A DNA stretch of 53,092 nt from Promethearchaeota archaeon (GCA_016839765.1 JAEOTP010000004.1:1-53092), one strand, 5' to 3'. Positions 9,999 to 50,540 are shown, counted from the stretch's first letter. Translations and numbers: made by a program. Notes: a model not told the origin generated them from the sequence alone.

Positions 9999-10508
9999 GT
10001 GAGAGAAGAAACTGACTATGCTGAAGCATTAGAAGCCTATAAGGACGATCAATTCGTTATCATTGAACCTTGGGGGCGCAGTATTGACCATTTAAGGCTA
10101 ACCATTCTAGGCAAGGAAGGAACGCCATATGCTAAGGGCAGGTTTGTATTTGAAGTTAAATTTCCAGACAATTATCCTTTTGCCCCTCCCTATGCTTACG
10201 CCGTTACATTAATGTGGCATCCCAATATCGATTCCTCAATCCCTCCTGGGAAATTGAATATTTGTTTAGATTTGATCAATCCTGATCTTGTCGGAAAAGT
10301 TGATGCTGGAACAGGAGCTTCTGGATGGACACCAAGTAAAACCCTTACCAACATCATAGAAGCCTTGAAGATGATGATGCATTTAGATCCTCCTTTCTTT
10401 AATCCTGGGGATCCTTTAAACCATGAAGCCGGCGAACAATATTTTAGAGCCCTTAAGAAATTCGAAGCAAAGGCGGCTTCTTGGACAAAGAAATATGCTA
10501 TGGATTAA
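9999..10508 (+). CDS. E2-like ubiquitin-conjugating enzyme (UBC fold)
   Basis: 169 residues. E2 enzymes accept an activated ubiquitin-like protein from E1 on a cysteine and pass it to a target lysine. The UBC fold is clear: the strand FVFEVKFPDNYPFAPP, the HPN motif at 74-76, catalytic Cys89 in LNICLDL, SGWTPSKTL corresponding to the conserved W-x-P segment, and DPLNHEAGEQY matching the usual DPLN-x-EA helix. The only in-frame start near the N-terminus is GTG at 9999, limited by a stop at 9984; no strong ribosome-binding site is seen. An E1-like gene lies about 2 kb away on the other strand. No E3, ubiquitin-like protein or isopeptidase gene is adjacent, so the modifier it carries is unknown. 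Confidence 0.93.
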   Translation: MREETDYAEALEAYKDDQFVIIEPWGRSIDHLRLTILGKEGTPYAKGRFVFEVKFPDNYPFAPPYAYAVTLMWHPNIDSSIPPGKLNICLDLINPDLVGKVDAGTGASGWTPSKTLTNIIEALKMMMHLDPPFFNPGDPLNHEAGEQYFRALKKFEAKAASWTKKYAMD

Positions 10509-10901
10509 TTAATTTTTTGTATTTTATATTTCCTATTTTCATTTTTTAAGTTTATAATCCTCTTAACTTAAGTAATTTTAAATAACTACTTGGAACGTAA
10601 TTAAATTAGGAAAGATATTTTCTTACTGATATTCAATTATCTCCTGTCAATGCGATATATGATAATCCTATTCACAGAGAAAGCGGAAATTTATCTCGAA
10701 TCGATGGTGAAAAATGTATGGAATATTTTTATAAGACCACAGGGTGTTCTGTGTGCATTCAGGTATGTCCATTCCATAAAATAGGGTATAAAGTAATGCA
10801 TTACTCAAGGTTGTAAATACAATTTACATGTTTATCTAAAAGCTTTTTTGTTAATTCACATTTTATTATTCAATATTTATTTCATTTAGTCAACGCTCAC
10901 A
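10509..10901. other. Intergenic stretch holding a decayed ferredoxin-domain fragment
   Basis: 393 bases without an intact gene. The fragment at 10610-10816 is the only coding-like content; the rest is AT-rich spacer upstream of the HAD gene. Confidence 0.6.
10610..10816 (+). pseudogene. C-terminal remnant of an RdhA/QueG-like 4Fe-4S domain
   Basis: A 68-codon open stretch begins right after a TAG and has no suitable start. Its translation includes NPIHRESGN, then EKCMEYFYKTTGCSVCIQVC followed by PFHKIGYK. The C-x9-G-C-x2-C-x3-C-P-F pattern and flanking Tyr residues match the second cluster-binding motif of the double 4Fe-4S domain in reductive-dehalogenase-like and epoxyqueuosine-reductase-like proteins. 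The first cluster motif and the entire catalytic domain are missing upstream, so this is the tail of a deleted gene. It ends in a normal TAA. Confidence 0.7.
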
Positions 10902-11516
10902 ATGAATGATCTTCTCTCTTTTAAAAATAAAAAAGTAATAGTATTTGATTTAGACGGTACAATTGTAAAATTAGCTGCTGATTGGCATTCTTTAAAGGAT
11001 GTTTTAGCAGAAAGATATTCTGAATATTATCAAGAAGAGTGTCAATTTAGAAGCATCTCAGCATGTTTAAGTAATATTATAAAAAGAAATGATGAGGAAG
11101 AACTTAGAAAAAATTTCGAAATTATTAGACAGTATGAATTAGAAAATATAAGGGAAAATGTTCCGATAGAGGAATCTGTTTTTTTCATTAAAAATTTAAG
11201 TTTATTTGGAGTCCAGAAGACTACAAAATTAGCAGTCCTCTCATTAAATACACGAAGAACTATAATAGAATCCTTAAAATTGGCAAATATTTATGAATTA
11301 ATAGATTTTATCGTAGGAAGAGAGGATGTAAGAAAATGGAAACCAGAACCCCAAGGATTATTAAAGATTAAGGAACATTTTGATGTAAAGAAAGAAGAGA
11401 TGGTATTTATAGGGGACTTAGACAATGATTTACTTACTGGTCAAAATGCTGGAATAGATTCCTTCCTTGTCGATGAATTAATAGAACTTGTGAAGGATCT
11501 TAGAAGAAAATCGTGA
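10902..11516 (+). CDS. HAD-superfamily hydrolase (phosphoglycolate phosphatase-like)
   Basis: 204 residues. HAD phosphatases use an aspartate nucleophile and Mg2+ to remove phosphate from small metabolites. Motif I is VFDLDGTIV (D16 and D18), motif II is near AVLSLNTR, motif III is the lysine in RKWKPEPQG, and motif IV is FIGDLDNDLLTGQNAG. A helical cap lies between motifs I and II. The substrate cannot be deduced; phosphoglycolate or a similar phosphomonoester is typical of this subgroup. Convergent with the acetyltransferase gene (42 bases between stops). Confidence 0.85.
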   Translation: MNDLLSFKNKKVIVFDLDGTIVKLAADWHSLKDVLAERYSEYYQEECQFRSISACLSNIIKRNDEEELRKNFEIIRQYELENIRENVPIEESVFFIKNLSLFGVQKTTKLAVLSLNTRRTIIESLKLANIYELIDFIVGREDVRKWKPEPQGLLKIKEHFDVKKEEMVFIGDLDNDLLTGQNAGIDSFLVDELIELVKDLRRKS

Positions 11517-11558
11517 ATTATCAAAAAGGAAACAAAATTAAATAATAATTTAAAAGAT

Positions 11559-12389
11559 TTAACCTCTATCTGGACCAGCTATAGCAAGTAATCCCTCAGT
11601 ATGAGTAAAAGGCTCACCATATAACATTCTTATTGAATAGAAATATTGAGTGAAATTAAGATATTGAGCTAATTTGAAAGCTCTCTTTACACCTTCAAGA
11701 AGTCCTAATCGAACTTTATTTATGTTTACATTATTTACTAAATTCTGAAGGAGTAATTGCGGTTTAGGTTCTTTTGGGTCAACAATCCAAGGACCAATTA
11801 ATATATAATCCTCTTTTGGAATACCCATTATAAATCCAATTAATTTGTTCTTTCGAATCAGAACATGACATAAATTTGGATGAAGTGAAAATCTCCTTTT
11901 AAGAAGAAATGCTCGATTTCCTTTAAATTGTTTTCGATCCAATTGTATTACTTTATCAATATCTTCTAATGTCATTAAACGCACATTTTCAACTGGTTTG
12001 GAATCTATATTCCCTTCTAATCTTAAAGAACGACAAATAGCTTGAAAACCTAACTTATTATATAAAGATATTATTTGGGGCACGGCATCAAGCAAAATTG
12101 TTCTAGCACCTTTAGATTTTAAGTAATCAATTGCATATTTCATCAGATTTCTTCCAAATCCTTGCCTTCTAAATTTTTTTGCGACAATTAAATTTCCTAT
12201 GACTCCAAATGATCCATAAAATGCAGTAGAAACAATCCCATTAAGTATTCCCTTAGATTCAGAAATAAAAAAACCTTGCGGGGAAAATAGAAAGAGATCT
12301 TCTAACTCTTCTTTAGAAGTCCCCCATTCTTCAATCTCAGTTAGTTTAAGGGCAAAATTTAATTCTTCTCTTGAAATTAGCCTTATCAT
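11559..12389 (-). CDS. GNAT N-acetyltransferase with two GNAT-like domains
   Basis: 276 residues. The N-terminal GNAT domain has the acetyl-CoA loop RRQGFGRNL and the downstream SLYNKLGF helix-strand typical of the fold. From about residue 135 a second, diverged GNAT-like domain follows (MTLEDIDKVIQLDRKQFKGNRAFLLKR, then KLIGFIMG and IGPWIVDP), like the Acetyltransf_18 arrangement in other tandem-GNAT proteins. It acetylates an unknown amine; a small metabolite is more usual than a protein for this layout. It lies between the E2- and E1-like genes, 64 bases downstream of E1 on the same strand, so it may be co-transcribed with E1. Confidence 0.85.
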   Translation of the reverse strand: MIRLISREELNFALKLTEIEEWGTSKEELEDLFLFSPQGFFISESKGILNGIVSTAFYGSFGVIGNLIVAKKFRRQGFGRNLMKYAIDYLKSKGARTILLDAVPQIISLYNKLGFQAICRSLRLEGNIDSKPVENVRLMTLEDIDKVIQLDRKQFKGNRAFLLKRRFSLHPNLCHVLIRKNKLIGFIMGIPKEDYILIGPWIVDPKEPKPQLLLQNLVNNVNINKVRLGLLEGVKRAFKLAQYLNFTQYFYSIRMLYGEPFTHTEGLLAIAGPDRG

Positions 12390-12453
12390 TACTTAAACTT
12401 AAAATTTTATTTGTATTTACAAGGAAAAATGATAAAAAAATAACTTACGGAAC

Positions 12454-14028
12454 TCACATGTAGGTAATAATTATATTATATTTCTTAATTTCTGATTCTA
12501 CCTTCGCTTGCCCTAATGGTGTCAATGTTATAATATCGTTATTCTTTATTTTTAAAGATGTTAATTTAATATTTGGGTCTTTCATAGAAGGGATATACGG
12601 ATTCCAATATATTTCTTTGTTAACCGGATTTGTAATCATCCATAATATTGGTTCTAATTCATGACCGATTATTCTCATGGCTTTAAAAATATATCCGATA
12701 TCAGCATCAAATGGAACAACTATTTGTATGTTTTCCTCACCTTCTATTTTACCACACGCTAAACAATCTTCTCTCTTAATAATGTCAAGGTGATCAAATT
12801 GACCATACACGCCGTTATAATTAACATAGGGAGGATCCATAGGAGGTCCGACATTTCTACCATGTAATCTTAACAATATTTTTAGTGCTTCTTGTGATTG
12901 TATACTTGCTATTACTGAACTAACCGATTGGATCGCAGCAATTTTATTTCCAAGTATATTCTCCATTTCGTCAAACTTAAAATTTGGACCGAATGTTTCT
13001 GTGATATTATTTTTCCAATCTTGAATTTCTTCAAGGCTAAGAGTTTCCAATTTTTCAGGAGGGACATTCTCATTAAAAACTCGTTGTCTTAATGCTTCTA
13101 ATTCCTCCTGGGCAATTTCTATTAACTTTATAACATCATCATCTACGTTCATATCCGGTTTAAATCCGTATTTTTTTTCAAAATTTACTTCAGCTTTTAT
13201 TACACAATGGTTTCTATTCCTAGGTAATCCTTTTAATGTACATGCAGCTACTAACTTATCGTCAGCGGGAGGAATTGGAATAAGGCATCTATAACAAGGA
13301 GTGAAGTTTAAGATTTTTTCAGCATATTTCGCATCAAACTCCTCCTCAACTTGTTTCCGAATGTGGGCTCTTATTGGTTCAATTTTTTCACGTTTAATTT
13401 TCTCAATCAATTCCTCTAAGATTTCAATTTCTTTTAAAGCATCTAGATAATCAGGGCTTTCCACTTCCCACATCTTACTCTCTATAATTTTTTCAATTTC
13501 AATGTCTTTACCTTTATATTCAATTCCAGATCCTTCAGGAATTACAATTTGGACATGCCCCTCAAAACCTACAGTTCCCCCTTCAATCATTGGTTTTTTC
13601 AACCTAAGACATATCTTATTTAAATCTAATCGTGCGTTAAAATTATCTAATGCAGCAATAATTACATCTGATTCTTCATACACGGACATGGGCAACTTTT
13701 GTAGCTTTTCAAAGTAAAAGTCCACTTTTAAATATGGATTCATTTCTTTTAACCGTTCAGCGGCCACTTCTGCTTTAGGGCGTCCTTCATCTCCAGGTCT
13801 AAATAACATCTGCCGGGACAAGTTTGAAGTTTCTATAGTATCTAAATCTATTAAGATTATTTTTCCTATTCCCATTAAAGCAAAATCTTTAGCTATTTCA
13901 CACCCAAGAGCTCCAACTCCAACAATCATTATACATGAACTTTCAAGAGTTTCTTGGTCCCAACCGTCAATTAGTTGCTGCCTTGCATACATTCGAGATT
14001 TTAAAACATCCTCTTTATGTTCCATCAT
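12454..14028 (-). CDS. E1-like ubiquitin-activating enzyme (ThiF/UBA fold with catalytic Cys domain)
   Basis: 524 residues. E1 enzymes adenylate the C-terminal glycine of a ubiquitin-like protein and take it onto a cysteine. The adenylation domain is complete: GVGALG (37-42), D61/D63, the NLSRQ motif (69-73), K85 and ALDNFNAR with D128. Zinc ligands are CYRC (245-248) and CLAC (422-425), as in UBA2/UBA3. C263 in ACTLKGLP-x5-HC aligns with the eukaryotic E1 catalytic cysteine segment (CT-x6-HC). A charged helical insertion spans about 170-240. The C-terminal part from about 433 could be a ubiquitin-fold domain for E2 recruitment. These features separate it from bacterial MoeB/ThiF. The start may be either of two adjacent ATGs. 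The acetyltransferase gene follows on the same strand. Confidence 0.92.
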   Translation of the reverse strand: MMEHKEDVLKSRMYARQQLIDGWDQETLESSCIMIVGVGALGCEIAKDFALMGIGKIILIDLDTIETSNLSRQMLFRPGDEGRPKAEVAAERLKEMNPYLKVDFYFEKLQKLPMSVYEESDVIIAALDNFNARLDLNKICLRLKKPMIEGGTVGFEGHVQIVIPEGSGIEYKGKDIEIEKIIESKMWEVESPDYLDALKEIEILEELIEKIKREKIEPIRAHIRKQVEEEFDAKYAEKILNFTPCYRCLIPIPPADDKLVAACTLKGLPRNRNHCVIKAEVNFEKKYGFKPDMNVDDDVIKLIEIAQEELEALRQRVFNENVPPEKLETLSLEEIQDWKNNITETFGPNFKFDEMENILGNKIAAIQSVSSVIASIQSQEALKILLRLHGRNVGPPMDPPYVNYNGVYGQFDHLDIIKREDCLACGKIEGEENIQIVVPFDADIGYIFKAMRIIGHELEPILWMITNPVNKEIYWNPYIPSMKDPNIKLTSLKIKNNDIITLTPLGQAKVESEIKKYNIIITYM

Positions 14029-14137: not shown

Positions 14138-17100
14138 TTACTTCTTCTTCTTTTTAGTTAAATCTTTTAACATTTCTTTAATTTCATCAGCTTTTTCTTT
14201 ATCCCTTGATAACTGTATTTCTTCTCTTTTTTTAGCAGCATCCTCCTTAGATCTCTTAATTTCATTTATAAGTTCTTGCTTTAAATTGATTAATTCCTTC
14301 ATATCTTTTCTGAATTTTTTTGCTGCTTTCTTCTCTATTTCTTTTTCTTCTTTTTGTTTTGATTTCTGTTCTTTAATTTGATTTTTGATTAAATGTGAAA
14401 TTTCACCGGTCATATCGCTTAGTTCGCCAATGGTCCCTTGTATTTTTATCTCGTTTTCCTTTAATCGAATTTCTTCTAAATGTTTTTTACTTACTAATTC
14501 TTCATAAATTTTTTGTATCCTTTTTTCTTCTTCTTTTACTTTTTCTTGGAGTAGTCTAGTATTTTCAATTTCTTTCTCAATAAATTTTGTTTGCTCATCC
14601 CAACCAATTTCGTTAAATTTTGCAATTGCTTGTTCAAAATAATTATAAGCTTTTTCAAAATCGTGATGGATGGCTAAGCGCTTTCCCTCATCTATTAATT
14701 TTAGGCCTTCATCCTTTAGCTGATTGGCATATTGTTGTTGTTGTTTTATTTGGCTCATCTTTTTCTGTTGATCTCTTTTCCTTCTTAAATACTCTTCACG
14801 TCTCTGTCTTATTTCTTCTTGGAATTTTTCATACTCTCTTTGTCTTTTAATTCGTATGTTTTCTTCTCTTTTTTTCTTTTCTATTGAATTTTTCTTTTCT
14901 TGTTCTAAATCCTTTATTAAAATATTAATATTATTTATTTCAGGCTCCCAACCGACCTTTTCAGCTAAAATATTCCTTGCCTGATTATATAAAGAAATAG
15001 CTTTATCATAATCTGGCATTTTCCTCATAAGGTAATTACCTGCTTTTTCTAAAAGAGAATATGCTGCCTCTCTATTGCTTAATTGTTCTTGAACCAACCT
15101 TTCTCGCTCTTGAAGTGCTATTTTTTGTGCTAATTGCTTTTCCCTTTCATATTTTCTTCTTTCTTCGATAAGAACTCTTAATTTCTTTTCTTCTTCAATT
15201 TTTGCTAGTTCTCTTTTTAATTTTGCTTGTTGTTGAACAAATTGCTGTTTTTTAAGATTTTCTACTTTAACTATCATCTCAGTAATAGAATCAGTTGGAA
15301 ATTGTATTTCATTTAAAATTAACATGACTTGTCTGTAAATATTTATTGCCTTATTATAATCCTTTGTTTTAATGAAATGTTCAGCGTCGTCTAAAATTTT
15401 AAATGCTTCTTCTTTCTTTTCTTCCACTGTGGCTTTAACTTTTTCTATTTCTTGAATTTTAATTTTCTTTTCTTTTAGTCTTGCTTTTTCCCTACTTATT
15501 TGCTCAGCTACTTTTTTATTAAATTTTTGCTGCTCTTTTTCTTTTTGAATTTTGATCTCTAATTCCTTTTGTTTCTCTAATTCTTGCTCTCTTGTCTTAT
15601 CGGTGACTTTTAAAATCATTTCTCGTACAGATTCAGTTGGAAATTGAATTTCATTCAAAATTAATTCTGAACTATGATAAAATTCGAGTGCTTTATCATA
15701 TAGAGCTGCTTTTAAAAAGCTTTCAGCTTGGTCTAAAAGATCAAATGCATCTTCTTTTCTTTTTTCCATAAATTCTTTAACAATTTCACGTTTTCTTAGC
15801 TTAATTTGTTTATTTTTTATTTTTTCTTTCTCAAAGTTCATATATTCTACAATTTTTTGCTGAAAAATTTTTTCCTCCTTCTCCTTCCTAATTTCTTGTT
15901 CTAAATCATAATGTCTCGCTAAATCCTTTTCTCTTTTCTTCTCTTGGATATTTAAAATCAATTCTTTAATAGCATCTGTAGGGTACTGAATTTCATTTAA
16001 AACTAATTCTGCTTGGTGATAAAGTTCAATTGCTTGCTCATACAATCCTATATTCAATAAATCCTCTGCTTTATCCATTAAATCAAACGCTTCGATCTTA
16101 AGTGAATTTATTTGTTCCATTATTACTTCTTTCTTTTCGATTTCAATTTTCTTTTCCTTAAACCTTTCCCTTTCTCTCTTCATTTGTTCAGCAAGTTTCA
16201 TTTCAAATTTTCTTTCTTCTTCAATTTGTTTTCTTGCTAGCTCTTTTTCTCTTAGCTTTGCTTTTTCTTTTTCTTCTTTTTTGAAATTAATTTCATTAAT
16301 TGTTTCTCGAATTAATTTTACATATACCCCCTTCCAACCAATACTATTTAATAAATCCAGAGCTTGTTGATATGTTGTCATAGCATCTTCAAATCTTTCT
16401 TGATTCAGTAAAGAATCACCTTTATCAATTAATTTAAATGCTTGATCCTGTTTAGAAAGCTGCTGAGCAGATAACTCTTTTTTTTTAGCCAGTATTTCTT
16501 GTTCTTTTTGCATCTTTTTAATTTCAATTTCTCTTTGGTGCTTTATTCGGTTAAAAAATTTAAAATCTTCCAATTCTTTTTTGACACCTTCCTCAATGTG
16601 CTTTTGTTTCAATAATTCCTTTTCCTTCTTTTTTGTCTCAATCTCCATGATTGCATTATGTATAATAGGGATTTCCTCCTTCCACTGTATCTGTGCAAAA
16701 ATATTAGCAACATTCCTATACGTCTCAATCGCTTCGTTAAATCTACCTAATGAAAGATAATTTTGTGCCTTTTCAATCAGAATAAAAGCCTCCCCTCTCT
16801 TTTGCTCACGATATTCTAATTCTTTATTATTATCTCTTAATTTCAAGGCTTTTTGTTTAAACATTTCCTTTTGTAATTTTAGCTGCTCTACAATATTTAT
16901 CTGAAATTCTTTTTCTCTTCTTTCTCTATCAAGCTTCTTTTGTAGCTCTCCTTGCCTTTTTAAAAGTAGATCCTTTTTTTGATTCTCGATTTCTATTATA
17001 GCATTCCCTATAAATTCTACTTCATCATACCATTGAATTTCTGCAAAGATATTAGCTACAATATGATAATATTCAATTGCTTTATCAAAATTAGCTTCAT

Positions 17101-19090
17101 TGATACATTTTTGAGCTTGATCTAGTATCTTGAAAGCATCCTCCTTCCTTCTCTGTCGATATTCTAATTCTTTATCTTTTTCTCTTATTTTTACTTCTTT
17201 TTTCCTCAGCTTCTCTCGTTCTGTTCGTAACTGAGTCGCAATTCTTTCTTGAAAATCATATTCTTCTTTTTGTCTTTCAATTTCTCTTTGGATATCTTTT
17301 TGTTTTTTTATTTCAATTTCGTTCTTCATATTTTCTAATTCTTTAATCGATGCTTCAATCAGAGGTATTTCTTCCTGCCATTGAATACTCGTAAAAATGT
17401 TACCTGCATTTTGATAAGCTAAAATTGCATTATCTAAATTCCCCATTTTAATATACTTTTGGGCTTCATCTAGCGCTTTAAATGCGGAATCTTTACGTTG
17501 CTCGATAAATCCTTGCTTATCCTTATCCAATTGGATTTCAATTTCTTTTTCTTTTAACTTTTTGCGTTCTCTTTCTAATAGAGTTGAAATTTGCTTCTGA
17601 AACTCTAATTCTTGTTTTGATTTTTCCTCTAATTTTTTCTGTGCTTCAAACTCCTTTTCATATTGCGTTTCTTTTAGTTTCTTCACACTATCGATAGTGG
17701 TTTTAATTGTAGGGATATAAGATTCCCAACCTGATCCAAGATCAAGGAGTATTTCTAACGCATTTTGATATTCTTTGATTGCTCCATTAAAATCTTGATT
17801 TTGTTGGAGTTTGTTATCAGCTTTATCTAAAAAGGTAAAAAATTGGCTCTCTTTTTCCAATTGCGATTGTCTTTTTTGTACATATTCTCTATGTTGAACT
17901 TCAAAATCTTTTGCTGTCTGTATAACATGTTCTTTTTCTTTTAGAAACAACTGGTCTTGTATTTTTTCAAGATTATTTTCTCTCTTTTTTCTTATGTCTT
18001 CTAACTCTTCTTCTGCATTTTGCTTTTCCTTTATATCATCTATAAAATTCACAACAGGTTGGATATATGAATCCCATTCAATCGATTTAAATAATTCTAT
18101 GGCTCTTTGAAATTTTTCAATGGCTTTTGTGTACTCCTTTTCCCTTTCTAGTTTTTTAGCAAAATCAATCAAATTAAATGCTTCAATTTGTATATCTTCC
18201 TCAGATCTTCTTTTATACTCAAATTCAACTACTTTAGAACTATCTGGTAGCATTTGGGAATCAATTTCAGAATCATGAACAGCAGAAGATTCTTCAATTC
18301 GTTGTTTCGTTTCAAACCTTTCATAAATCTCTTTCTCTCTTATAAGCTTTTCAATTATAAATTGAATATTTTGCGTTTGGTCTTTCCATCCGATTGAGTT
18401 TAATAAATCAACTGCTTTTTCATAATTTTTAATTGCTTCATCAAATTTTTTATTTTTCTCATGAAATTTAGCGTTATCAATAAACGCAAAAGCATCATTT
18501 TGTACTTTCTCTTGTTTTGCTTTCATTTCTTGATATTTTCTAAGTTGTTCTGCCTTTTCGATACTCTTCTTTTCACCAAAAGCATCCACTACCTGAAGTT
18601 TCCCTCCTATTTGCGAAGGTAGTTGTATAGAAATATCCTTATCACTCTTAGTAGTTTTTTGAGTTTTATCCTTATCTGTAAGAGCAGCAACTTTCATTTT
18701 TAGATTTTGCAGCTGTGATTCAGACCACCCAGCTTGAGTTAATAACTTTATAGCAGAATTATATCGCTCGATTGCATCTTGAAAACTTCCATCTGATTCT
18801 AGTTCAGAGGCTCTGTCAATTATTACAAAAGCCTGATCCTGAAGTTTTTCAATTTGAGCACTTAGTTGTTCATGCTGATATAATCTCTGTTCTTTCATGA
18901 AAGTTTTTAAACCCTCTATTCTATCATACAATTCACTAACCCTATGCATCATATAACCACTTTTTTTAAGATTATCGGCAGCTAATTGATAGTTTTCAAT
19001 AGCTTCCTGTTCTTTTCCTTCTGCTTCAAATCTCTGGGCTATCTCTAAGTACTTGAGGGCTTCTTGAGCTAAATATTCATTATTCTGCAT
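14138..19090 (-). CDS. Giant 14-repeat TPR-like/coiled-coil protein
   Basis: 1650 residues, by far the largest gene here. I count 14 copies of a helical hairpin of the type EAFxLIDKAxxLLxxxxYxKAIxxYxxA, starting near residues 9, 86, 199, 302, 415, 535 and 651 and then roughly every 105-120 residues. Most hairpins end in a conserved I-x-W or IGW segment (IQF/IQY in repeats 10-12) and a third helix. Between hairpins are 50-70 residue segments almost entirely of Glu, Lys, Arg, Gln and Leu, as in long coiled coils or single alpha-helices. The C-terminus is a further charged helix ending in a lysine run. There is no signal peptide, membrane span or catalytic motif. The likely role is a long cytoplasmic scaffold or filament-like protein; this is inference. 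Divergent from the ASKHA/ferredoxin gene. Confidence 0.9.
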   Translation of the reverse strand: MQNNEYLAQEALKYLEIAQRFEAEGKEQEAIENYQLAADNLKKSGYMMHRVSELYDRIEGLKTFMKEQRLYQHEQLSAQIEKLQDQAFVIIDRASELESDGSFQDAIERYNSAIKLLTQAGWSESQLQNLKMKVAALTDKDKTQKTTKSDKDISIQLPSQIGGKLQVVDAFGEKKSIEKAEQLRKYQEMKAKQEKVQNDAFAFIDNAKFHEKNKKFDEAIKNYEKAVDLLNSIGWKDQTQNIQFIIEKLIREKEIYERFETKQRIEESSAVHDSEIDSQMLPDSSKVVEFEYKRRSEEDIQIEAFNLIDFAKKLEREKEYTKAIEKFQRAIELFKSIEWDSYIQPVVNFIDDIKEKQNAEEELEDIRKKRENNLEKIQDQLFLKEKEHVIQTAKDFEVQHREYVQKRQSQLEKESQFFTFLDKADNKLQQNQDFNGAIKEYQNALEILLDLGSGWESYIPTIKTTIDSVKKLKETQYEKEFEAQKKLEEKSKQELEFQKQISTLLERERKKLKEKEIEIQLDKDKQGFIEQRKDSAFKALDEAQKYIKMGNLDNAILAYQNAGNIFTSIQWQEEIPLIEASIKELENMKNEIEIKKQKDIQREIERQKEEYDFQERIATQLRTEREKLRKKEVKIREKDKELEYRQRRKEDAFKILDQAQKCINEANFDKAIEYYHIVANIFAEIQWYDEVEFIGNAIIEIENQKKDLLLKRQGELQKKLDRERREKEFQINIVEQLKLQKEMFKQKALKLRDNNKELEYREQKRGEAFILIEKAQNYLSLGRFNEAIETYRNVANIFAQIQWKEEIPIIHNAIMEIETKKKEKELLKQKHIEEGVKKELEDFKFFNRIKHQREIEIKKMQKEQEILAKKKELSAQQLSKQDQAFKLIDKGDSLLNQERFEDAMTTYQQALDLLNSIGWKGVYVKLIRETINEINFKKEEKEKAKLREKELARKQIEEERKFEMKLAEQMKRERERFKEKKIEIEKKEVIMEQINSLKIEAFDLMDKAEDLLNIGLYEQAIELYHQAELVLNEIQYPTDAIKELILNIQEKKREKDLARHYDLEQEIRKEKEEKIFQQKIVEYMNFEKEKIKNKQIKLRKREIVKEFMEKRKEDAFDLLDQAESFLKAALYDKALEFYHSSELILNEIQFPTESVREMILKVTDKTREQELEKQKELEIKIQKEKEQQKFNKKVAEQISREKARLKEKKIKIQEIEKVKATVEEKKEEAFKILDDAEHFIKTKDYNKAINIYRQVMLILNEIQFPTDSITEMIVKVENLKKQQFVQQQAKLKRELAKIEEEKKLRVLIEERRKYEREKQLAQKIALQERERLVQEQLSNREAAYSLLEKAGNYLMRKMPDYDKAISLYNQARNILAEKVGWEPEINNINILIKDLEQEKKNSIEKKKREENIRIKRQREYEKFQEEIRQRREEYLRRKRDQQKKMSQIKQQQQYANQLKDEGLKLIDEGKRLAIHHDFEKAYNYFEQAIAKFNEIGWDEQTKFIEKEIENTRLLQEKVKEEEKRIQKIYEELVSKKHLEEIRLKENEIKIQGTIGELSDMTGEISHLIKNQIKEQKSKQKEEKEIEKKAAKKFRKDMKELINLKQELINEIKRSKEDAAKKREEIQLSRDKEKADEIKEMLKDLTKKKKK

Positions 19091-42204: not shown

Positions 42205-43686
42205 TTACTCCTTTTTTTTAAATTCAGAAGTTATTGCTCCATATATATTTTTAATATTAATGGTGCTAAATAAAAACTTAAAATCTTCCTTAGAGAACCC
42301 TTTAAAAATATAGTTTATTAAGAAATATAATAATATATCCAAAAATGCTAATAATGGTACAAAATATATTGAAAAATTCACTAAAGTGTTTACCCATAAA
42401 TGAGTAAAATAAATTCCAAGCATTATAATTAAATTTCTGAATGAACCCCAATAAAATCCTAATCCATATTTCTTATAAATAATCGGTCTATAAATAATTT
42501 GGATTAAGGTCTTAGCCAAAATATACGATAAAACGCCTCCATAAACACCAAAATTAAAAATACTTGGATGAATAAAAAGTATCATGAAAATTATTGAGAG
42601 AGAGTATTCTATTATGGAGAATTTAGCAACAAAACGTACATCTCCTAAAGCTTGTAGTTGAATTATATTACCAATATCAATAGAAAGTGGTATTAAACTA
42701 AGAACAAAAACAAATAAGATTTCCCCTGTTAATCGATAATCTTCTCCAAGAATAATTATAAATACGTCAGTTGCATAAATAGCTGTTAAAAATACTATAG
42801 GTATTATTATTAGATTCAAAATTTTGTGAGTATATTTTATAACTTCAATATTTTCTTTTATTTTTCCTTCAGAAATATTTCTAGAAAAAGTTGAAATCAA
42901 TATACTTGTAATGCTGTTTGTGATAATAAGAAAATATGAATAAAATTGTTTTGCGGTAAAATAATTAGCAACACTATTGATATCAGACCATATATTAATT
43001 AAAAGAACGTCTATATTACTAACAATAAAAAGGAGACTCGAAGTTAAGAAAAAGGGAAGGCTATAATGAAGAAACTTTTTAATAAATTCTTTATTAGGGC
43101 TCTTAAACTTTCTTTTCCTAATAAAAAAAATATTTAATATAAAATAAGCGATATTTGAAATCATTAATATACTAATCAATAACCATATAGTATTTTCATA
43201 ATAAAAAATCATTAAAATTAAAAGAAAATTTCTTGAGAATCCTACCAATATTGAAGATATTGCGTTTTTAAAAACTTCTTTTTTACCCAACAAAATAGTA
43301 TCAAAAAAGCTAGCTCTGAAAGATAAAATTGCAAGAAAAAATATATAAACAACAATAATATCTCCACTATAAACAGGAATTAAGGGTATAAATATTAAAA
43401 CAACACTAACATAGATAAAAAATTGAATTACTCGATATATTAAAAAGGTACCATTACAAAGTGCTTCTTCTTCAGCATTATTGGATTCAGCAAAATATTT
43501 TAAATACGCATATGTAAATCCTAAGTGATTTATTAAACTGAATGTATTAAAAAAGGATAGAATAGCTCCATAATATCCTACTATTTCTATTTCAAAAAAT
43601 ATTCGTATTAAGTAGAAGAATATTAAACTTAATGCTATATTAACTATGTTTCCAACAATTAATAAAAAAATTTTCGTGGAATCCAT
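42205..43686 (-). CDS. Polysaccharide flippase (Wzx/MATE-like, MOP superfamily)
   Basis: 493 residues with about 12-14 hydrophobic segments spread over the full length. The N-terminal loop YYGAILSFFNTFSLINHLGFTYAYLKYFAE is characteristic of PST/Wzx transporters. These move lipid-linked sugar units across the membrane. It is convergent with the methyltransferase gene (12 bases between stops). It fits the glycan island as the export step. Confidence 0.85.
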   Translation of the reverse strand: MDSTKIFLLIVGNIVNIALSLIFFYLIRIFFEIEIVGYYGAILSFFNTFSLINHLGFTYAYLKYFAESNNAEEEALCNGTFLIYRVIQFFIYVSVVLIFIPLIPVYSGDIIVVYIFFLAILSFRASFFDTILLGKKEVFKNAISSILVGFSRNFLLILMIFYYENTIWLLISILMISNIAYFILNIFFIRKRKFKSPNKEFIKKFLHYSLPFFLTSSLLFIVSNIDVLLINIWSDINSVANYFTAKQFYSYFLIITNSITSILISTFSRNISEGKIKENIEVIKYTHKILNLIIIPIVFLTAIYATDVFIIILGEDYRLTGEILFVFVLSLIPLSIDIGNIIQLQALGDVRFVAKFSIIEYSLSIIFMILFIHPSIFNFGVYGGVLSYILAKTLIQIIYRPIIYKKYGLGFYWGSFRNLIIMLGIYFTHLWVNTLVNFSIYFVPLLAFLDILLYFLINYIFKGFSKEDFKFLFSTINIKNIYGAITSEFKKKE

Positions 43687-43925: not shown

Positions 43926-44690
43926 ATGAAGGCTATAATTATTGCAGCTGGACCAAGTACCAGATTACGACCCTTCACAGACTACAAACCTAAATGTCTA
44001 TTAGAAATTGAAGGAAAAACGATTCTTGATCGAACTTTAGATATATTTTATAGCTGTGGGATTAATGATATAGTTATTATTCGTGGATATCAGAAAGAAA
44101 CAATTGATTTACCTAATATTCGGTATTATGATAATAATGATTTTTATAACAATAACATATTAGAATCGCTTTTTTACGCTGAATCAGAGATGGATAATGA
44201 ATTTATATTCACATATTCGGATATTCTTTTTAGTAAAGAAGTTGTTCAAAAACTCCTAGATTCTCCACATGATTTTAGCCTTGTAGTAGATACGGCTTGG
44301 AGAGAACGATACGAGGGGCGTACGAAACATCCTACAGATGAAGCTGAATTAGTTCTTGTAGAGGAGGGTAAGTTAATTCACCTTTCTAAATTTTTCAATC
44401 CTGATGCCGCTTATGGCGAATTTATAGGTCTTGGTAAGATATCTAAGAAAGGAGCTGAAATATTAACTCGTAATTATAATCGCGCTAAATATAATAAAGC
44501 TTGTAAGTTTGCCGGCCGTTTTCATGATGCTATAACGATTGAAAAAGCATATTTAACAGATATGTTTGAAGAACTCATTTTTAGAGGATACTCTATTTAC
44601 TCAGTAGATATCGAAGGAAGGTGGGTCGAATTGGATACAGACCAAGATTATGAATATGCTAAAGAATTAATAAAGGAAGGTAAAATTTGA
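43926..44690 (+). CDS. Sugar/polyol-phosphate nucleotidyltransferase (LicC/PntC-like)
   Basis: 254 residues. The N-terminal MKAIIIAAGPSTRLRPFTDYKPKCLLEI is the nucleotide-binding signature of NTP transferases, with P-S-T-R in place of the common G-T-R. YSDILFSKEVV holds the metal-binding Asp. The C-terminal GRWVELDTDQDYEYAKEL resembles CTP:phosphocholine and phosphonate cytidylyltransferases. It would activate a small phosphorylated compound as a CDP (or UDP) derivative. An OPA organophosphate transporter follows after 25 bases, and a TagB-type polymerase reads toward it. The likely substrate is therefore glycerol phosphate, ribitol phosphate or choline phosphate rather than a hexose phosphate, but this is inference. 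Confidence 0.83.
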   Translation: MKAIIIAAGPSTRLRPFTDYKPKCLLEIEGKTILDRTLDIFYSCGINDIVIIRGYQKETIDLPNIRYYDNNDFYNNNILESLFYAESEMDNEFIFTYSDILFSKEVVQKLLDSPHDFSLVVDTAWRERYEGRTKHPTDEAELVLVEEGKLIHLSKFFNPDAAYGEFIGLGKISKKGAEILTRNYNRAKYNKACKFAGRFHDAITIEKAYLTDMFEELIFRGYSIYSVDIEGRWVELDTDQDYEYAKELIKEGKI

Positions 44691-44715
44691 AATTTTTAAA
44701 AAATGATAAAAAAGT

Positions 44716-46026
44716 ATGACTGAAAAAAATACTAATGAAACCGAAGTTAAAAATCAATTCAAATCCTGGCGGAAGCGAATATTTTTTACAGTTTGGATTA
44801 CCTACATGATCTATTATATAGGACGAAATAATTATGCTATAGCAAAACCCTTCATCATGGGTGAATTTGGAGCATATTCCGCCACTTTGATGGGACTTGT
44901 AAGTTCGACTTTTCTTCTTGCATATGCATTTGGACAATTTTTCAACGGTTTTCTGGGTGATAAAGTCGGTGCCAGACGTTTTATTACTCTAGGCTTAATT
45001 ATATCTTCAGCTTTAAATTTGTTAATGGGAGTTGCTTTTGATTTTATTTGGGTAGCATTTCTTTTTTGGGGCTTGAATGGTTATTTCCAATCAATGGGAT
45101 GGGCTCCTTCTGTAAAAACAATTGCTAATTGGTACCCTGCAGAAAAAAGAGGGAAATGGTCTAGTAGACTTGCCACTTCATATCTACTTGGAGGAGTCTT
45201 ATCATGGTTTATTGCAATACTTATTACTGACCAATTCAGTCTCGACTGGCGTTTTTCTTTTATTATTCCAGGGATTTTCATGTTTCTCATGGCGATTCAT
45301 TTTTATATCCGTATTAGAAATGCTCCTGAAGAGGTTGGTTTACCAACTTTGGAAGAAGAATGTGATGGTAAAATAGTAATGGGGGAATGCCGTCCTGATA
45401 AATTTGTAGGTTTTAAGTATACTCTTAACACAGTAATTAAGACTAGAACCGTTCTCTTTGCATCTTTTGGGTTATTTTGCTTAAATATGGTTAGATATGG
45501 ATTAACCGACTGGCTTCCATATTTATTAAGCCCTGAAATAACGGGTGCTGCATACTTTGGTACATGGAAATCCATTTTTTACCCTATTGGGGGTACAATT
45601 GGCGTCATTATCGCGGCATGGATTTCAGACAAATATGTTAAAAAAAGAAGAATACCTGTAGTTTGCGCTTTTTTTATTGGGTTGGGACTTACATTATTTA
45701 TATATACATTGTTACCACCGCTTGATGTGGTTTTTGGAATTCCCGTATTGATGTTAATAGGCTTTCTAAATTTTGGCCCTCATGCACTTTTAGTTACTAC
45801 AATACCTATGGAATTTGGCACAAGGAAAGCATCTTCTGCCGCTACGGGATTTATTGATGGAGTTGGATATATTGGAGCTGCTATTACAACTTTTACGTCA
45901 GGCGCTCTAATTGATGCTGCTGGATCTGGAGCTGCTTTTACGCTTTGGATAATTGTTGCTTTAGTAGGTGGATTAGTCCTATTATTTGATTGGAAAAGTA
46001 TGCCAGAGAGAAGAGAATATCTTTAA
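44716..46026 (+). CDS. MFS transporter of the organophosphate:phosphate antiporter (OPA) family
   Basis: 436 residues with 12 hydrophobic segments. Family-specific segments are ITYMIYYIGRNNYAIAKP, FGQFFNGFLGDKVGAR and NGYFQSMGWAPSVKTIANWY, as in GlpT, UhpT and PgtP. These exchange an organic phosphate such as glycerol-3-phosphate for inorganic phosphate. It lies 25 bases behind the nucleotidyltransferase gene and is surely co-transcribed. Together they suggest uptake and activation of a phosphorylated polyol or sugar. It is convergent with the TagB-like gene. Confidence 0.9.
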   Translation: MTEKNTNETEVKNQFKSWRKRIFFTVWITYMIYYIGRNNYAIAKPFIMGEFGAYSATLMGLVSSTFLLAYAFGQFFNGFLGDKVGARRFITLGLIISSALNLLMGVAFDFIWVAFLFWGLNGYFQSMGWAPSVKTIANWYPAEKRGKWSSRLATSYLLGGVLSWFIAILITDQFSLDWRFSFIIPGIFMFLMAIHFYIRIRNAPEEVGLPTLEEECDGKIVMGECRPDKFVGFKYTLNTVIKTRTVLFASFGLFCLNMVRYGLTDWLPYLLSPEITGAAYFGTWKSIFYPIGGTIGVIIAAWISDKYVKKRRIPVVCAFFIGLGLTLFIYTLLPPLDVVFGIPVLMLIGFLNFGPHALLVTTIPMEFGTRKASSAATGFIDGVGYIGAAITTFTSGALIDAAGSGAAFTLWIIVALVGGLVLLFDWKSMPERREYL

Positions 46027-46081
46027 AAACCAAATCAAGTTAATATCTTTTTCTTTTATCTATTATCTTTTTTAAGAAATA

Positions 46082-47302
46082 TTATGTATACTCTATTCCT
46101 AGGAAATCTAAAATTCTTTCAATAGAGTTCCCATCATTATACTTGTTGAACTTTTCTCTTATTTTCTCTCTAATTCCTTTATATTCTATTTCTATCTTTT
46201 CCAGGCTTTTAATAGTCTTAATTAAATCTTCGACATTAAAAATAACAGGTCCCGGTGCTATTTCCTTAAGATTATAATTTAAACCTCTTCCTTCTTGATA
46301 TCTATCTATATCATAAGGAAATAAAATAATTGGTTTCATAGTCAACAAAAAATCAAATATAACTGATGAATAATCTGAGATAAGGAGATTTGAGATTAAA
46401 AGAAGTTCTTGAATATCTGAAGACTTCTTAACAAGATTAATATTTCCATATTCACTAAAATTAAACTCCTTTTCAAAAATATGACCCTTAAAAAGAAAAA
46501 CTGAATTCATTTCTTTTAATACTTTATTTAAGCTTGTTAGATCCTCTTTTGTAAACGGAAATCTTAAAGTATTAGCATCCCTATGTGTTGGAGCATATAA
46601 TATAACATAATTTGCATTTTCAGGTACATTATAGTACTTTTTAATTTTACTAATTAAATCTTTATCTTTGTTGAATAGGATATCATTTCTAGGGTACCCC
46701 AAATCGAGTATTTTATTAGGCGAAACTTTAAAAGCTGACGTTAATATTTCATGTTCATATTTTCCACTAGCAGGAGTTAAAACATAATCAATATACTGGT
46801 GAGGATATGACTTTAATTTCAGTATATCTACCCATTTTTTATAAATATAGGTTTTCTCAAAATCCTCCGTAATATCTTTTATTACAGTTCCATGGAACGT
46901 CATAATGATTTTAGTTTTCGGTGAAAATTCAATTGGCAATACGTCATATATACCATGAGTGAGAAAAACATACCTACATCTTCTTAAAAGTCTTATTGCA
47001 TTTATACTTAACATATAAACTGCATTATAACCTTTCTGTCTAAGATTCATCAGAATTTCTCGTGATTTTGTTAACCAAACCACTTTATACTTAGAATTTC
47101 TACTTAAAAATTCAAATAGATATTTTGTGTTGTCCAAATATGAATTTCCACTATACGCTCCCATAATTATTAAATTTTCATCAACTTTTTTACGAAATAG
47201 TTTAGAAATGAATTTAAAACAAAAAGGTATAAATATATCTCTTAAAAGTGCGTAAAAATTTTTATTTTTTAAAAAAGAAAGTCTCTCAAGCTGTAAATTC
47301 AT
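46082..47302 (-). CDS. CDP-glycerol glycerophosphotransferase family protein (TagB/TagF-like)
   Basis: 406 residues. Family features are LIIMGAYSGNSYLDNTKYL, MTFHGTVIKDI, SGKYEHEILTSAF and LDLGYPRNDIL. VILYAPTHRD corresponds to the YAPTWR-type motif, SDYSSVIFDFLL holds the conserved Ser/Asp, and DRYQEGRGLNYNL is the segment near the CDP site. Members build glycerol- or ribitol-phosphate chains in teichoic acids and some capsules. It is the last gene in a leftward run that starts with the sulfate genes, 101 bases after APS kinase. It faces the nucleotidyltransferase/OPA pair that could supply its CDP substrate. Confidence 0.88.
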   Translation of the reverse strand: MNLQLERLSFLKNKNFYALLRDIFIPFCFKFISKLFRKKVDENLIIMGAYSGNSYLDNTKYLFEFLSRNSKYKVVWLTKSREILMNLRQKGYNAVYMLSINAIRLLRRCRYVFLTHGIYDVLPIEFSPKTKIIMTFHGTVIKDITEDFEKTYIYKKWVDILKLKSYPHQYIDYVLTPASGKYEHEILTSAFKVSPNKILDLGYPRNDILFNKDKDLISKIKKYYNVPENANYVILYAPTHRDANTLRFPFTKEDLTSLNKVLKEMNSVFLFKGHIFEKEFNFSEYGNINLVKKSSDIQELLLISNLLISDYSSVIFDFLLTMKPIILFPYDIDRYQEGRGLNYNLKEIAPGPVIFNVEDLIKTIKSLEKIEIEYKGIREKIREKFNKYNDGNSIERILDFLGIEYT

Positions 47303-47403: not shown

Positions 47404-47952
47404 TTAATGCTCATCTGGTAAATAACCCATTTCATTTAGAGCATATAATATATTATTTTTACTTTCCTCGACTGTTTGTTTATCAGTTTCGACAATGATC
47501 TCTACATTATCAGGTTCTTCGAAGGGATGATCAATTCCAGTGAAATTTTTAATCTCACCGGCTCTAGCTTTAGAATACATACCTTTTACATCTCGTTTCT
47601 CGCATTCCTCTAGTGAACATTTAACATAAACAAGTATATAATCACCAATTTCATTCCGCGAATAAGCACGTATTTTATTATATGGTGATACAAAAGAGGC
47701 AAGGACAGCAACACCATTTCGGGTTAAAAGTTTAGCAACAAACGTGACTCTCTCAATGTTCATATTTCGATCCTCTTCAGTGAATCCCAAATCACGTGTT
47801 AAACTTTTTCTAACAATATCTCCATCTAGGCGTTCCACTTTCATCCCTCTTTTTCTCAGATCATCAGCAACAGCATCTGCAAGTATAGATTTCCCTGAGC
47901 AAGGAAGTCCTGTAAACCATAACGTAAATCCTTTATGTTCTATTTTTTTCAC
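47404..47952 (-). CDS. cysC: Adenylylsulfate (APS) kinase
   Basis: 182 residues. It phosphorylates APS to PAPS, the universal sulfate donor. The P-loop is GLPCSGKS (15-22), followed by ERLDGDIVRKSLTRDLGF (the D-G-D-x2-R motif), the SPYNKIR segment, and FTGIDHPFEEP near the C-terminus. Length and order match single-domain CysC. It is third in the leftward operon behind ATP sulfurylase and the AP-superfamily hydrolase, with only five bases between it and the latter. Confidence 0.93.
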   Translation of the reverse strand: MKKIEHKGFTLWFTGLPCSGKSILADAVADDLRKRGMKVERLDGDIVRKSLTRDLGFTEEDRNMNIERVTFVAKLLTRNGVAVLASFVSPYNKIRAYSRNEIGDYILVYVKCSLEECEKRDVKGMYSKARAGEIKNFTGIDHPFEEPDNVEIIVETDKQTVEESKNNILYALNEMGYLPDEH

Positions 47953-47957
47953 CCATT

Positions 47958-49346
47958 TTAAAATTCAATTACATTTCCTTCCATATCATTTGGAATTTCA
48001 AATCCTAAAATATTTAGACAAGTTGGAGCAATATCTAATATGTTTTTTGTGCCTAAATCCTTTCCAATTTTACTTTTTGGATTATAAATAATGTATATTC
48101 CGTAATAGTCATGTACAGCATCATCTGGTCCCGTGTCATTTTCTTTTAAATACATAGATTCATAACCTACTGTACCAGCAGATCTCCAATTTAAATCATC
48201 AAAATATACCATTAAATCAGGTGGATCTCCGCGAATTATTGCATAAAAATCTCCAGGTTTATAAACTTTTGTATTCATGGGGTTACCAGAGTCATCCTTT
48301 ATTGATTTTATCTTTTCTGCTATAAGGTCCCTCATTTTTTCGTAATCTTCCTTTTTAATAATACCTTCAGGTTCTCTTCCCTCAACATTTAAGAAAATCC
48401 TAGCATAATAACCACCCCAACCCCAAGCATATGTTTTGTTCCAATCAATTTTTGCATCATCTAATCTGGTTCCTGGTTTGGGTTTCCCTTTAAACTTTAA
48501 TAATCCAAGTTCTTCAAAGGCCATATTAACACATATTAAACCTTTCATTGCTTTTGCTCCATGATCGGATGCTACAACAATAGTTGTATTATCATCTAAC
48601 AAGTCCAAAATTTCCCCTACTTCTTCATCTAAATATTTATAATAGTTACGCATTTCAAGCTCGAATTGATTTCCAGGAACGTATTTGTCATGTTTTTTAT
48701 CAAAATATTTCCAAAAAGCATGATGAAATCTATCTAAACCTATTATAACAAATTGGAAAAAGTCCCAATCTTTATTTTTCATCAAATATTTGATTGTTTT
48801 AAACTGAATCCTAGTCATTTCATATATCTCCTTTAATAAAGCCGTTTTATTTTCTACTCTAAAATTTGCATCTAAAATGTAATTGCCAATTTCATCTTCT
48901 ATTTCTTGTTTCAGTTCAGGGGGATATGTATAAGTTGAGTCTGTATCTGGTGTTATAAAGCCAGCAATTAGGTTACCATTAATTGATTTGACAGGATATG
49001 TGGGAGGTACTCCAATAATAATGCTTTTTAATCCCTTTCTACCAATTATATCCCAAATGGTGGGTTCTTTTACTGAATTTGAAGTGGCTATCCAAAAATC
49101 ATTATAAGCAAACTTCTTTCGATGCCTAAATCCATAAATTCCAAGTGTACCTGCTTTTTTACCTGTTGCCATAACCATCCATGCTGGTATCGTAATTGGA
49201 GGATCTGAACTTCTTAATTTTCCATATACTCCATTTTCCATTAATTTTCTGATATTTGGGCAATCATCGATAAAATCATTGAATAAAGTTCTTGGTGTAG
49301 CGCAATCTAAACCAATAAGGACCAATTTCTTTTTTTTTTTACTCAT
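47958..49346 (-). CDS. Alkaline-phosphatase-superfamily hydrolase (type I phosphodiesterase-like)
   Basis: 462 residues. The N-terminal LVLIGLDCATPRT carries the first metal Asp. PPITIPAWMVMATGK contains the catalytic Thr/Ser. The VVASDHGAKAMKG segment holds the Asp-His metal pair, and HDYYGIYIIYNP is near the C-terminus. There is no signal peptide, so it is cytoplasmic. This family sits between sulfate adenylyltransferase and APS kinase genes in many genomes as well. A nucleotide, PAP or sulfate-ester substrate is plausible but unproven. It lies between sat and cysC with spacings of 45 and five bases. Confidence 0.85.
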   Translation of the reverse strand: MSKKKKKLVLIGLDCATPRTLFNDFIDDCPNIRKLMENGVYGKLRSSDPPITIPAWMVMATGKKAGTLGIYGFRHRKKFAYNDFWIATSNSVKEPTIWDIIGRKGLKSIIIGVPPTYPVKSINGNLIAGFITPDTDSTYTYPPELKQEIEDEIGNYILDANFRVENKTALLKEIYEMTRIQFKTIKYLMKNKDWDFFQFVIIGLDRFHHAFWKYFDKKHDKYVPGNQFELEMRNYYKYLDEEVGEILDLLDDNTTIVVASDHGAKAMKGLICVNMAFEELGLLKFKGKPKPGTRLDDAKIDWNKTYAWGWGGYYARIFLNVEGREPEGIIKKEDYEKMRDLIAEKIKSIKDDSGNPMNTKVYKPGDFYAIIRGDPPDLMVYFDDLNWRSAGTVGYESMYLKENDTGPDDAVHDYYGIYIIYNPKSKIGKDLGTKNILDIAPTCLNILGFEIPNDMEGNVIEF

Positions 49347-49391
49347 TATGATACTAACTCAAGGCTCTCATTTTTATAATTAACATAAAAA

Positions 49392-50540
49392 TCATGTAAC
49401 AAATGGATTTTTATACTTTAGAATCACTTCTGCTACTTCTTTGCGCATAACTTCTGGATCAGGTGGGTTTCCAGCCTTTAAAGCATTTCTAATTTCACGA
49501 CCTGCAAAGAAATTCTGCATTTCTGGAGGATGGGGACAAATCTTATCATTCACAACCGCGTCACACTTTTTACATTTTGAGAAGGAGCGAAATTTAATTG
49601 GTTCAATACCTAAATCTGGAAATTTATCAAAAATGAAATGAGCATCATAAGGTCCATAATAATTCCCTACTCCTGCATGATCTCTCCCAATAATTATATG
49701 TGTACATCCAAAATTCTTTCTTGCAATTGCATGAAATATAGCTTCTTTTGGTCCCGCATATCTCATCTCTGTTTCGAATGTACTCATTACTACGCGATTT
49801 TTAGGATAATATTCTTTAATTAATACTTTATATGCTTCGATAATTACACTGTCTAAGAAATCACCTTGCTTTTTCTTACCAATTACAGGATTTATGAACA
49901 AACCATCTACATAAGTCAAGCCTGCTTTTTGGATATATTCATGTCCTAAATGTGGTGGGTTTCTTGTTTGAAACGCCACAACTCGTTCCCATCTCATTTC
50001 CTTGAAAAGGACTCTTGTTTCTATAGGCTTTAGGTCTATTTCTGGGAATGTAGCTTTAGGTTCATTGATTAAAAATATTTGTCCTCCCATTAGTTTTTCT
50101 TTATAGTTTAAAACACTGTTCACTCCTGGATGATCTCTTTCTAAAGTTCCATATGTTTTGCTTGCATAATCCTTTTTGTCAAAATCATAGATATCTTCTA
50201 CTCTCATTAATGCAATAGGCTTATTCTCACCATTTGTTAGGATGATCTGATCATCGCTTTTGATATTCTTGAGTTCATTTTCTGAAACATCTAAAGTTAT
50301 AGGAAAAGGCCAAGGAATATCACTTTCCAAATACATAGACTCAAGAACATAATTATAATCATTTTCATTCATAAAGCCTTCTAATGGGCTAAATACTCCA
50401 AATGCAATGTTTTTAATCACTTTTAATGTTTCAGGTCTTACTTTAATTGTTTCAAATTCGTTGACCTGACCCAAAATTCTTTCCCTTTCAAAATTAGGTA
50501 AAACCTTATTTATTAAAGTACCTCCATGTGGCGGAATCAT
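49392..50540 (-). CDS. sat: Sulfate adenylyltransferase (ATP sulfurylase)
   Basis: 382 residues. It makes APS from ATP and sulfate. The N-terminus (MIPPHGGTLINKVL) is typical of archaeal and bacterial monofunctional Sat. The nucleotide-binding QTRNPPHLGHEY and GRDHAGVGNYYGPYD are intact. The cysteines in FSKCKKCDAVVNDKICPH are a zinc-binding region seen in some members. With APS kinase in the same operon the product is PAPS for sulfation or assimilation; no APS reductase is nearby, so assimilation or sulfate respiration is not indicated. The upstream RHH gene is 48 bases away. Confidence 0.95.
   Translation of the reverse strand: MIPPHGGTLINKVLPNFERERILGQVNEFETIKVRPETLKVIKNIAFGVFSPLEGFMNENDYNYVLESMYLESDIPWPFPITLDVSENELKNIKSDDQIILTNGENKPIALMRVEDIYDFDKKDYASKTYGTLERDHPGVNSVLNYKEKLMGGQIFLINEPKATFPEIDLKPIETRVLFKEMRWERVVAFQTRNPPHLGHEYIQKAGLTYVDGLFINPVIGKKKQGDFLDSVIIEAYKVLIKEYYPKNRVVMSTFETEMRYAGPKEAIFHAIARKNFGCTHIIIGRDHAGVGNYYGPYDAHFIFDKFPDLGIEPIKFRSFSKCKKCDAVVNDKICPHPPEMQNFFAGREIRNALKAGNPPDPEVMRKEVAEVILKYKNPFVT

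Follow-up and report, generated by a model that had tools for sequence, protein, structure and literature searches.

Do three neighbouring genes of an Asgard archaeon encode a teichoic-acid-like pathway, or do they serve another kind of surface modification? This question is raised by positions 43,926 to 47,302 of a 53,092-nucleotide stretch of DNA from a Promethearchaeota archaeon (GCA_016839765.1, JAEOTP010000004.1:1-53092), which was analyzed at its full length and is called the window below. The host is a Lokiarchaeon, the members of its family being named Lokiarchaeota or Lokiarchaeia. A first-pass annotation, made from the sequence, had proposed a cytidylyltransferase-like nucleotidyltransferase (NTase), a transporter of the OPA family and a "TagB-type polymerase" that together would take up a phosphorylated polyol, activate it as a CDP compound and place it on a surface glycan. 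Open reading frame (ORF) and domain analysis found all three genes where they had been placed, with the OPA gene exactly 25 nt behind the NTase gene and the third gene, of family PF04464, convergent with the OPA gene at a distance of 55 nt. The first two genes were found to form a fixed pair, and the reading favoured here, to which a probability of roughly 0.5 is given, is that this pair scavenges and activates a small phosphonate for TagF-type transfer to a surface glycan. The three genes are:

43926-44690, plus strand: PntC/LicC-type NTase of 254 amino acids, predicted CTP:phosphonate cytidylyltransferase (PF12804, NTP_transf_3, E = 2.9e-12)
44716-46026, plus strand: OPA-family (GlpT/AepP-like) protein of 436 amino acids, predicted organophosphate/phosphonate antiporter (MFS_1, 1e-47; TIGR00881; PDB 1pw4)
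46082-47302, minus strand: PF04464 (Glyphos_transf; TagF/TarF-like) single-domain transferase of 406 amino acids, probable acceptor enzyme (E = 2.3e-77)

Conservation of the NTase-OPA pair

The survey covered 228 Asgard genomes, the window genome among them. NTase orthologues (60-89% identity) were present in 14 of these, including the window genome, and the set of genomes with OPA orthologues was identical (Fisher p = 1e-22). In all 14 genomes the OPA gene follows the NTase gene by 15-31 nt, so that the two constitute, with near certainty, a fixed two-gene unit whose linkage goes far beyond chance. The pair genomes come from two Lokiarchaeota genera and, in five cases, from a distant family (Hodarchaeota or Heimdallarchaeota). 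The end of a contig in a Chloroflexota metagenome-assembled genome carries the same pair, with approximately 48-49% (NTase) and 44% (OPA) identity to the window proteins; as the OPA gene was present in only one of 400 sampled Chloroflexota genomes, the bacterial pair appears to be rare. A conserved module of all three genes was rejected: of the group described in the first-pass annotation, the NTase-OPA part proved to be the sole constant element, while the TagF-like gene is an occasional partner that adjoins the pair in two of the 14 genomes, the window genome and G146 of the same genus; in G146 the three genes share one orientation.

The window NTase is sister to the copy of a different genus (G116, 89% identity) and not to the copy of G146 (60%; loci L003 and L015). 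Together with the higher G+C content of the pair (0.32-0.37, versus approximately 0.25 in the surroundings), this relationship suggests that the pair moved horizontally.

Identity of the nucleotidyltransferase

The best PDB sequence matches of the window NTase were LicC and PntC. Its structure model is confident (pLDDT 92.7) and matched the fold of PntC (6pd2, E = 9.7e-18) first, followed by LicC (1jyl) and inositol-1-phosphate cytidylyltransferase. In the phylogenetic tree a 95/89 split places the NTase clade, Chloroflexota proteins included, on one side with the NTase domains fused to phosphoenolpyruvate (PEP) mutase in archaea and bacteria, and apart from the NTases linked to CDP-alcohol phosphotransferases. 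The nucleotide-binding motif GxG(T/S)R...PK is present as G9-P-S-T-R13 ... P22-K23, in which the third glycine is a serine, and the Mg-binding aspartate is conserved as D99. The enzyme is very probably a PntC/LicC-type cytidylyltransferase and not one of TagD/TarI type. A specificity for a hexose phosphate, the contrary outcome named in the first-pass annotation, is not indicated, since the modelled fold and the tree both point rather to a cytidylyltransferase that uses CTP and a phospho- or phosphono-alcohol. Plasmid searches with the NTase yielded solely distant proteins of the phosphocholine cytidylyltransferase family. In bacteria, NTases occur in over two thirds of phosphonate clusters, and approximately 60% of PEP mutases are fused to one (PMC6697681).

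One clue to the substrate is a residue that in PntC (E104) sits near the amine of 2-aminoethylphosphonate (AEP) and that is also acidic in LicC (D105). The window NTase has Y97 at this site, a residue that is invariant in 13 of 13 aligned orthologues, and the protein is for this reason classed as PntC/LicC-type and is not claimed as an AEP or phosphocholine enzyme. Among Asgard clusters, the stand-alone NTase of one that encodes an AEP transaminase (G109; TIGR03301, above cut-off) carries glutamate at the equivalent site, and the fused NTase domains of clusters with an Fe-alcohol dehydrogenase, which is expected to make 2-hydroxyethylphosphonate, carry asparagine or tyrosine. This pattern and the tyrosine itself favour a non-amine substrate, as far as one site can tell. 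With a tyrosine in place of the acidic residue near the AEP amine, the favoured substrate is perhaps 2-hydroxyethylphosphonate. From the candidates listed in the first-pass annotation, aminoethylphosphonate and choline phosphate were the better part of the guess.

Two N-terminal extensions were observed among related NTases. Five NTase ORFs (L006, L007, L008, L009 and L015) begin with approximately 53 additional residues of helix-turn-helix appearance; no coding for such an extension is found upstream of the window NTase. In all of the Hodarchaeota or Heimdallarchaeota loci L010-L014 the pair diverges from the gene of a second NTase of approximately 300 amino acids, whose N-terminal extension (MVFIKKVKSGSKTYYYL...) looks, by eye, like the N-terminus of a transposase.

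Substrate site of the transporter

The OPA protein matched the subfamily model TIGR00881 (2.2e-67) and the GlpT model TIGR00712 (1.6e-53), in both cases under the curated cut-offs, and is homologous to the GlpT structure PDB 1pw4. The phosphate-binding arginines R45 and R269 of GlpT are kept as R37 and R260 and are invariant, also in the Chloroflexota protein. The GlpT substrate-site residues K80, N162, H165, Y266 and E299 are replaced by Q, A, Y, N and P, respectively, and an import of sn-glycerol-3-phosphate, which the first-pass annotation had considered, is on this account not indicated. Q80, N266 and P299, together with the loss of N162 and H165, are common to the archaeal OPA proteins and to plasmid-borne relatives in Ensifer and Variovorax. 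The Ensifer gene lies in an operon with psrA, phnA and phnY, and the Variovorax gene is flanked by the same enzymes; no phosphonate genes were found beside the nearest plasmid OPA gene (Phyllobacterium). GlpT, PgtP and UhpC do not share the Q80/N266/P299 pattern, and the OPA tree splits the phosphonate-operon and archaeal set from these three at 100/99.

A precedent for OPA-mediated phosphonate uptake is AepP, a GlpT-related and experimentally supported AEP permease in which phosphate-binding residues are kept and glycerol-affinity residues are not (PMC8316502). Compared by this published description, the window protein resembles AepP in its relation to GlpT, in the kept phosphate residues and in the lost glycerol-site residues. 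It differs in its genetic context, as AepP is catabolic and accompanied by phnWAY or phnWX, whereas the window OPA gene is fixed to a cytidylyltransferase gene.

Alternation with PEP mutase

In seven Lokiarchaeota of the sister genus the pair stands directly before a PEP mutase-NTase gene, an Fe-alcohol dehydrogenase gene and a second NTase gene; on contigs that extend far enough, a phosphonopyruvate decarboxylase gene comes next (above the TIGR03297 cut-off, as scored in a sister locus without the pair). PEP mutase (PF13714) gave no match in the window genome, which is 96% complete, and is absent from seven of the 14 pair genomes, namely the window genome, G146 and five Hodarchaeales-type genomes. 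As genes that flank the carbon-phosphorus (C-P) cluster in several sister-genus genomes are found at 23.7-30.5 kb of the window, the window has the same neighbourhood but not the biosynthetic genes. In three other genomes of the window's genus (G139, G141 and G149) the gene directly before PEP mutase encodes a related TagF-like protein that has the same N-terminal signature; identities are 54% between G139 and the window and 52% for G139 and G149 versus G146. G139 and G146 have four adjacent flanking genes in common (42-69% identity), and at this homologous locus both keep the TagF-like gene, next to which G146 has NTase-OPA where G139 has PEP mutase. No other observation hints as strongly as this alternation that the pair stands in for phosphonate synthesis.

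A decayed phosphonate pathway on contig 87 of the window genome was considered and rejected. The phosphonopyruvate-decarboxylase-like matches there are two short separate ORFs (166 and 185 amino acids) that look like the alpha and beta subunits of sulfopyruvate decarboxylase, and no pathway decay is therefore claimed.

Many Lokiarchaeota possess complete-looking C-P clusters with a PEP mutase-NTase fusion, an Fe-alcohol dehydrogenase, a second NTase and a phosphonopyruvate decarboxylase (L038, L039, L040, L041, L043, L044, L053 and L132-L134). The fused NTase domain of these clusters lacks the arginine of the nucleotide-binding motif.

The TagF-like protein

The PF04464 protein contains both catalytic histidine motifs of TagF (aligned with 3l7i, 3l7j and 3l7m). 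It consists of a single domain of TarF/TagB size, an architecture that does not demonstrate a polymerase. The tree places it as sister to the G146 copy (100/100); a sister relationship of the window protein to the PEP-mutase-linked TagF-like proteins of G139, G141 and G149 was considered and found no support. PF04464 proteins are encoded in 29 of the 228 Asgard genomes and in four of the 14 pair genomes. They co-occur with PEP mutase above expectation, in 13 Asgard genomes (p = 8e-5, with no correction for relatedness), seven of which have the two genes within approximately 8 kb of each other.

A TagD-like protein (TIGR01518) gave no match at 1e-10 in the window genome or G146 and none above the curated cut-off in the 228 Asgard genomes, a search that did not separately include TarI-type proteins. 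LicD is absent from the window genome. In view of the missing TagD-like match and the missing LicD, the NTase is the best candidate maker of the activated donor for the PF04464 protein. Four CDP-alcohol phosphotransferases encoded elsewhere in the window genome remain as alternative users of the CMP conjugate, and whether the TagF-like protein acts as the transferase in this genome is an even call.

Other Asgard TagF-like genes (L118, L121, L122 and L123) adjoin genes of stand-alone LicC-like NTases that belong to another branch. Given this adjacency, the activation step that serves Asgard PF04464 proteins may in general be of LicC type and not of TagD type.

Proposed pathway and competing explanations

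In the favoured pathway, the OPA protein would exchange phosphate for an external phosphonate, much as the bacterial permease AepP does, and the PntC-type NTase would join the imported phosphonate to CMP from CTP. In the window genome and G146, the adjacent TagF-like enzyme would then move the phosphonyl group onto the surface glycan that the surrounding cluster produces. Congeneric Lokiarchaeota would instead supply a related TagF-like enzyme from their own PEP mutase pathway. The observed basis consists of the gene identities, the fixed pairing, the linkage to phosphonate clusters, the alternation with PEP mutase at one locus and the active-site residues, from which the phosphonate substrate, the direction of transport and the role of TagF as transferase are deduced. 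The earlier logic of uptake, CDP/CMP activation and transfer to a surface glycan is thereby upheld as a predicted function, and the perfect co-occurrence of NTase and OPA strengthens it. The substrate is probably a phosphonate rather than a phosphate ester. More tentatively, at slightly under even odds, Asgard surface glycans may have two interchangeable phosphonate supply routes, synthesis by PEP mutase or salvage by OPA and a PntC-type NTase, both feeding related PF04464 transferases, with the salvage pair shared by distant archaeal groups and Chloroflexota.

Several points weigh against this pathway. The TagF-like gene rarely adjoins the pair, and in the window it lies on the opposite strand. 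In the five Hodarchaeales genomes neither PEP mutase nor TagF is encoded near the pair. The OPA signature could be an ancestral state, the comparison having covered few bacterial sequences, and in genomes with PEP mutase the transporter could act in export rather than import. Furthermore, LicC takes phosphate esters as substrates, and few residues separate PntC from LicC.

The chief rival is a phosphate-ester version, in which the pair imports and activates phosphocholine, phosphoethanolamine, inositol-1-phosphate or glycerol phosphate, the NTase acting like LicC without a kinase and TagF adding the phospho-alcohol. In its favour, the fold matches that rank after PntC are LicC and inositol-1-phosphate cytidylyltransferase, PEP mutase is missing from half of the pair genomes, classical OPA proteins carry phosphate esters and PF04464 enzymes classically use CDP-glycerol. 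This version is nevertheless considered rather unlikely, because the NTase groups with PEP-mutase-fused domains, the OPA substrate site is like that of phosphonate-operon proteins and lacks the glycerol-3-phosphate residues of GlpT, the acid that LicC has near the choline or amine end is a tyrosine, and there is no TagD-like protein. The original teichoic-acid-like model, with import of sn-glycerol-3-phosphate or another polyol phosphate, synthesis of CDP-glycerol or CDP-ribitol and polymerisation by TagF, can draw on the match of the PF04464 protein to TarF/TagF with both catalytic histidines and on GlpT as a solved OPA homologue. It has become improbable with an NTase of PntC/LicC type outside the TagD and TarI families, no TagD-like match, a transporter in which the glycerol-site residues are replaced, and a single-domain TagF that is absent from most pair genomes.

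Scarcely more probable is an OPA protein that serves a phosphonate pathway as exporter or as phosphate-balancing antiporter, the pair being a functionless relic where PEP mutase was lost. A C-P cluster still adjoins the pair in half of the pair genomes and the window has the flanking genes of the cluster without its biosynthetic genes, but in the seven genomes that lack PEP mutase, which belong to two distant groups, the two genes are conserved, intact and adjacent, and the catalytic and phosphate-binding residues are invariant where decay would be expected of a relic. A phosphoramidate (MeOPN-like) pathway would have the NTase activate L-glutamine phosphate and an enzyme like adenylylsulfate (APS) kinase modify the CDP product; such a pathway is brought to mind by a Catenovulum relative (L072) encoded beside gamma-glutamyl-CDP-amidate-hydrolase-like, APS-kinase-like and PEP-synthase-like kinase genes, and by the APS kinase gene near the TagF-like gene of the window. 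It is very improbable here, since no amidotransferase or PEP-synthase-like kinase was evident near the pair in the window sequences inspected, which were not all searched, and the window APS kinase matches TIGR00455 strongly, its gene sharing a strand with that of a sulfate adenylyltransferase.

Relation to known systems

Known phosphonate decoration begins with C-P bond synthesis, and phosphocholine decoration by LicB-LicA-LicC-LicD proceeds by import, CTP activation and transfer to a surface glycan. The proposed window module follows the same three steps as the Lic system; it differs in that OPA is not a choline importer, no kinase is found next to the pair and a TagF-like protein takes the place of LicD. 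With TagD-TagB-TagF wall teichoic acid synthesis it has in common a PF04464 transferase with both catalytic histidines, whereas it has no TagD and a single-domain enzyme whose archaeal relatives are linked to phosphonate genes. It resembles the Pnt pathway (PMC6697681) in a PF12804 cytidylyltransferase of the same fold, with relatives linked to PEP mutase and a glycan cluster, and departs from it in an NTase that is fixed to OPA, carries a tyrosine for PntC E104 and occurs in a genome without PEP mutase.

Each enzyme comes from a known family, and what would be new is an import-activate pair in place of synthesis. In the literature searched, which left out most subscription papers, no report was found of such a pair replacing phosphonate synthesis, of its presence in Asgard archaea or of phosphonyl tailoring in these archaea. 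If the favoured reading is true, the conserved importer-cytidylyltransferase pair would mean that some cells coat their surface with scavenged phosphonates instead of C-P compounds of their own, and organisms with a phosphonate coat would escape a search that relies on PEP mutase alone. Phosphonyl tailoring would also extend to Asgard archaea, and a function would be suggested for the PF04464 proteins of archaea without CDP-glycerol enzymes.

Surroundings of the three genes

The three genes are surrounded by a surface-glycan cluster of epimerases, glycosyltransferases and a Wzx-like flippase, and sulfate-activation genes lie upstream of the PF04464 gene on the same strand:

42205-43686, minus strand: Wzx-like polysaccharide flippase, marker of the surface-glycan cluster (PF01943, 7.3e-14)
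47404-50540, minus strand: APS kinase (PF01583), alkaline phosphatase (AP)-superfamily phosphodiesterase (PF01663) and sulfate adenylyltransferase (PF01747)

Sulfation of the glycan is possible. In the distant Asgard genome G172 (L122, 345-7063) a sulfate adenylyltransferase gene (Sat) and an AP-superfamily gene are likewise found near an NTase and a TagF-like gene, and the repeated proximity of sulfate genes to TagF hints at combined sulfation and phospho- or phosphonyl decoration.

Elsewhere in the window, an E2-like ubiquitin-conjugating protein (PF00179) is encoded near a ThiF/E1-like protein (PF00899) at 9999-14028, representing an Asgard ubiquitin-type system. The adjacent region at 14138-19090 encodes a protein of 1650 amino acids with many repeats of a helical unit (..A..LIDKAE.....YEKAI..Y..A..I...I.W..).

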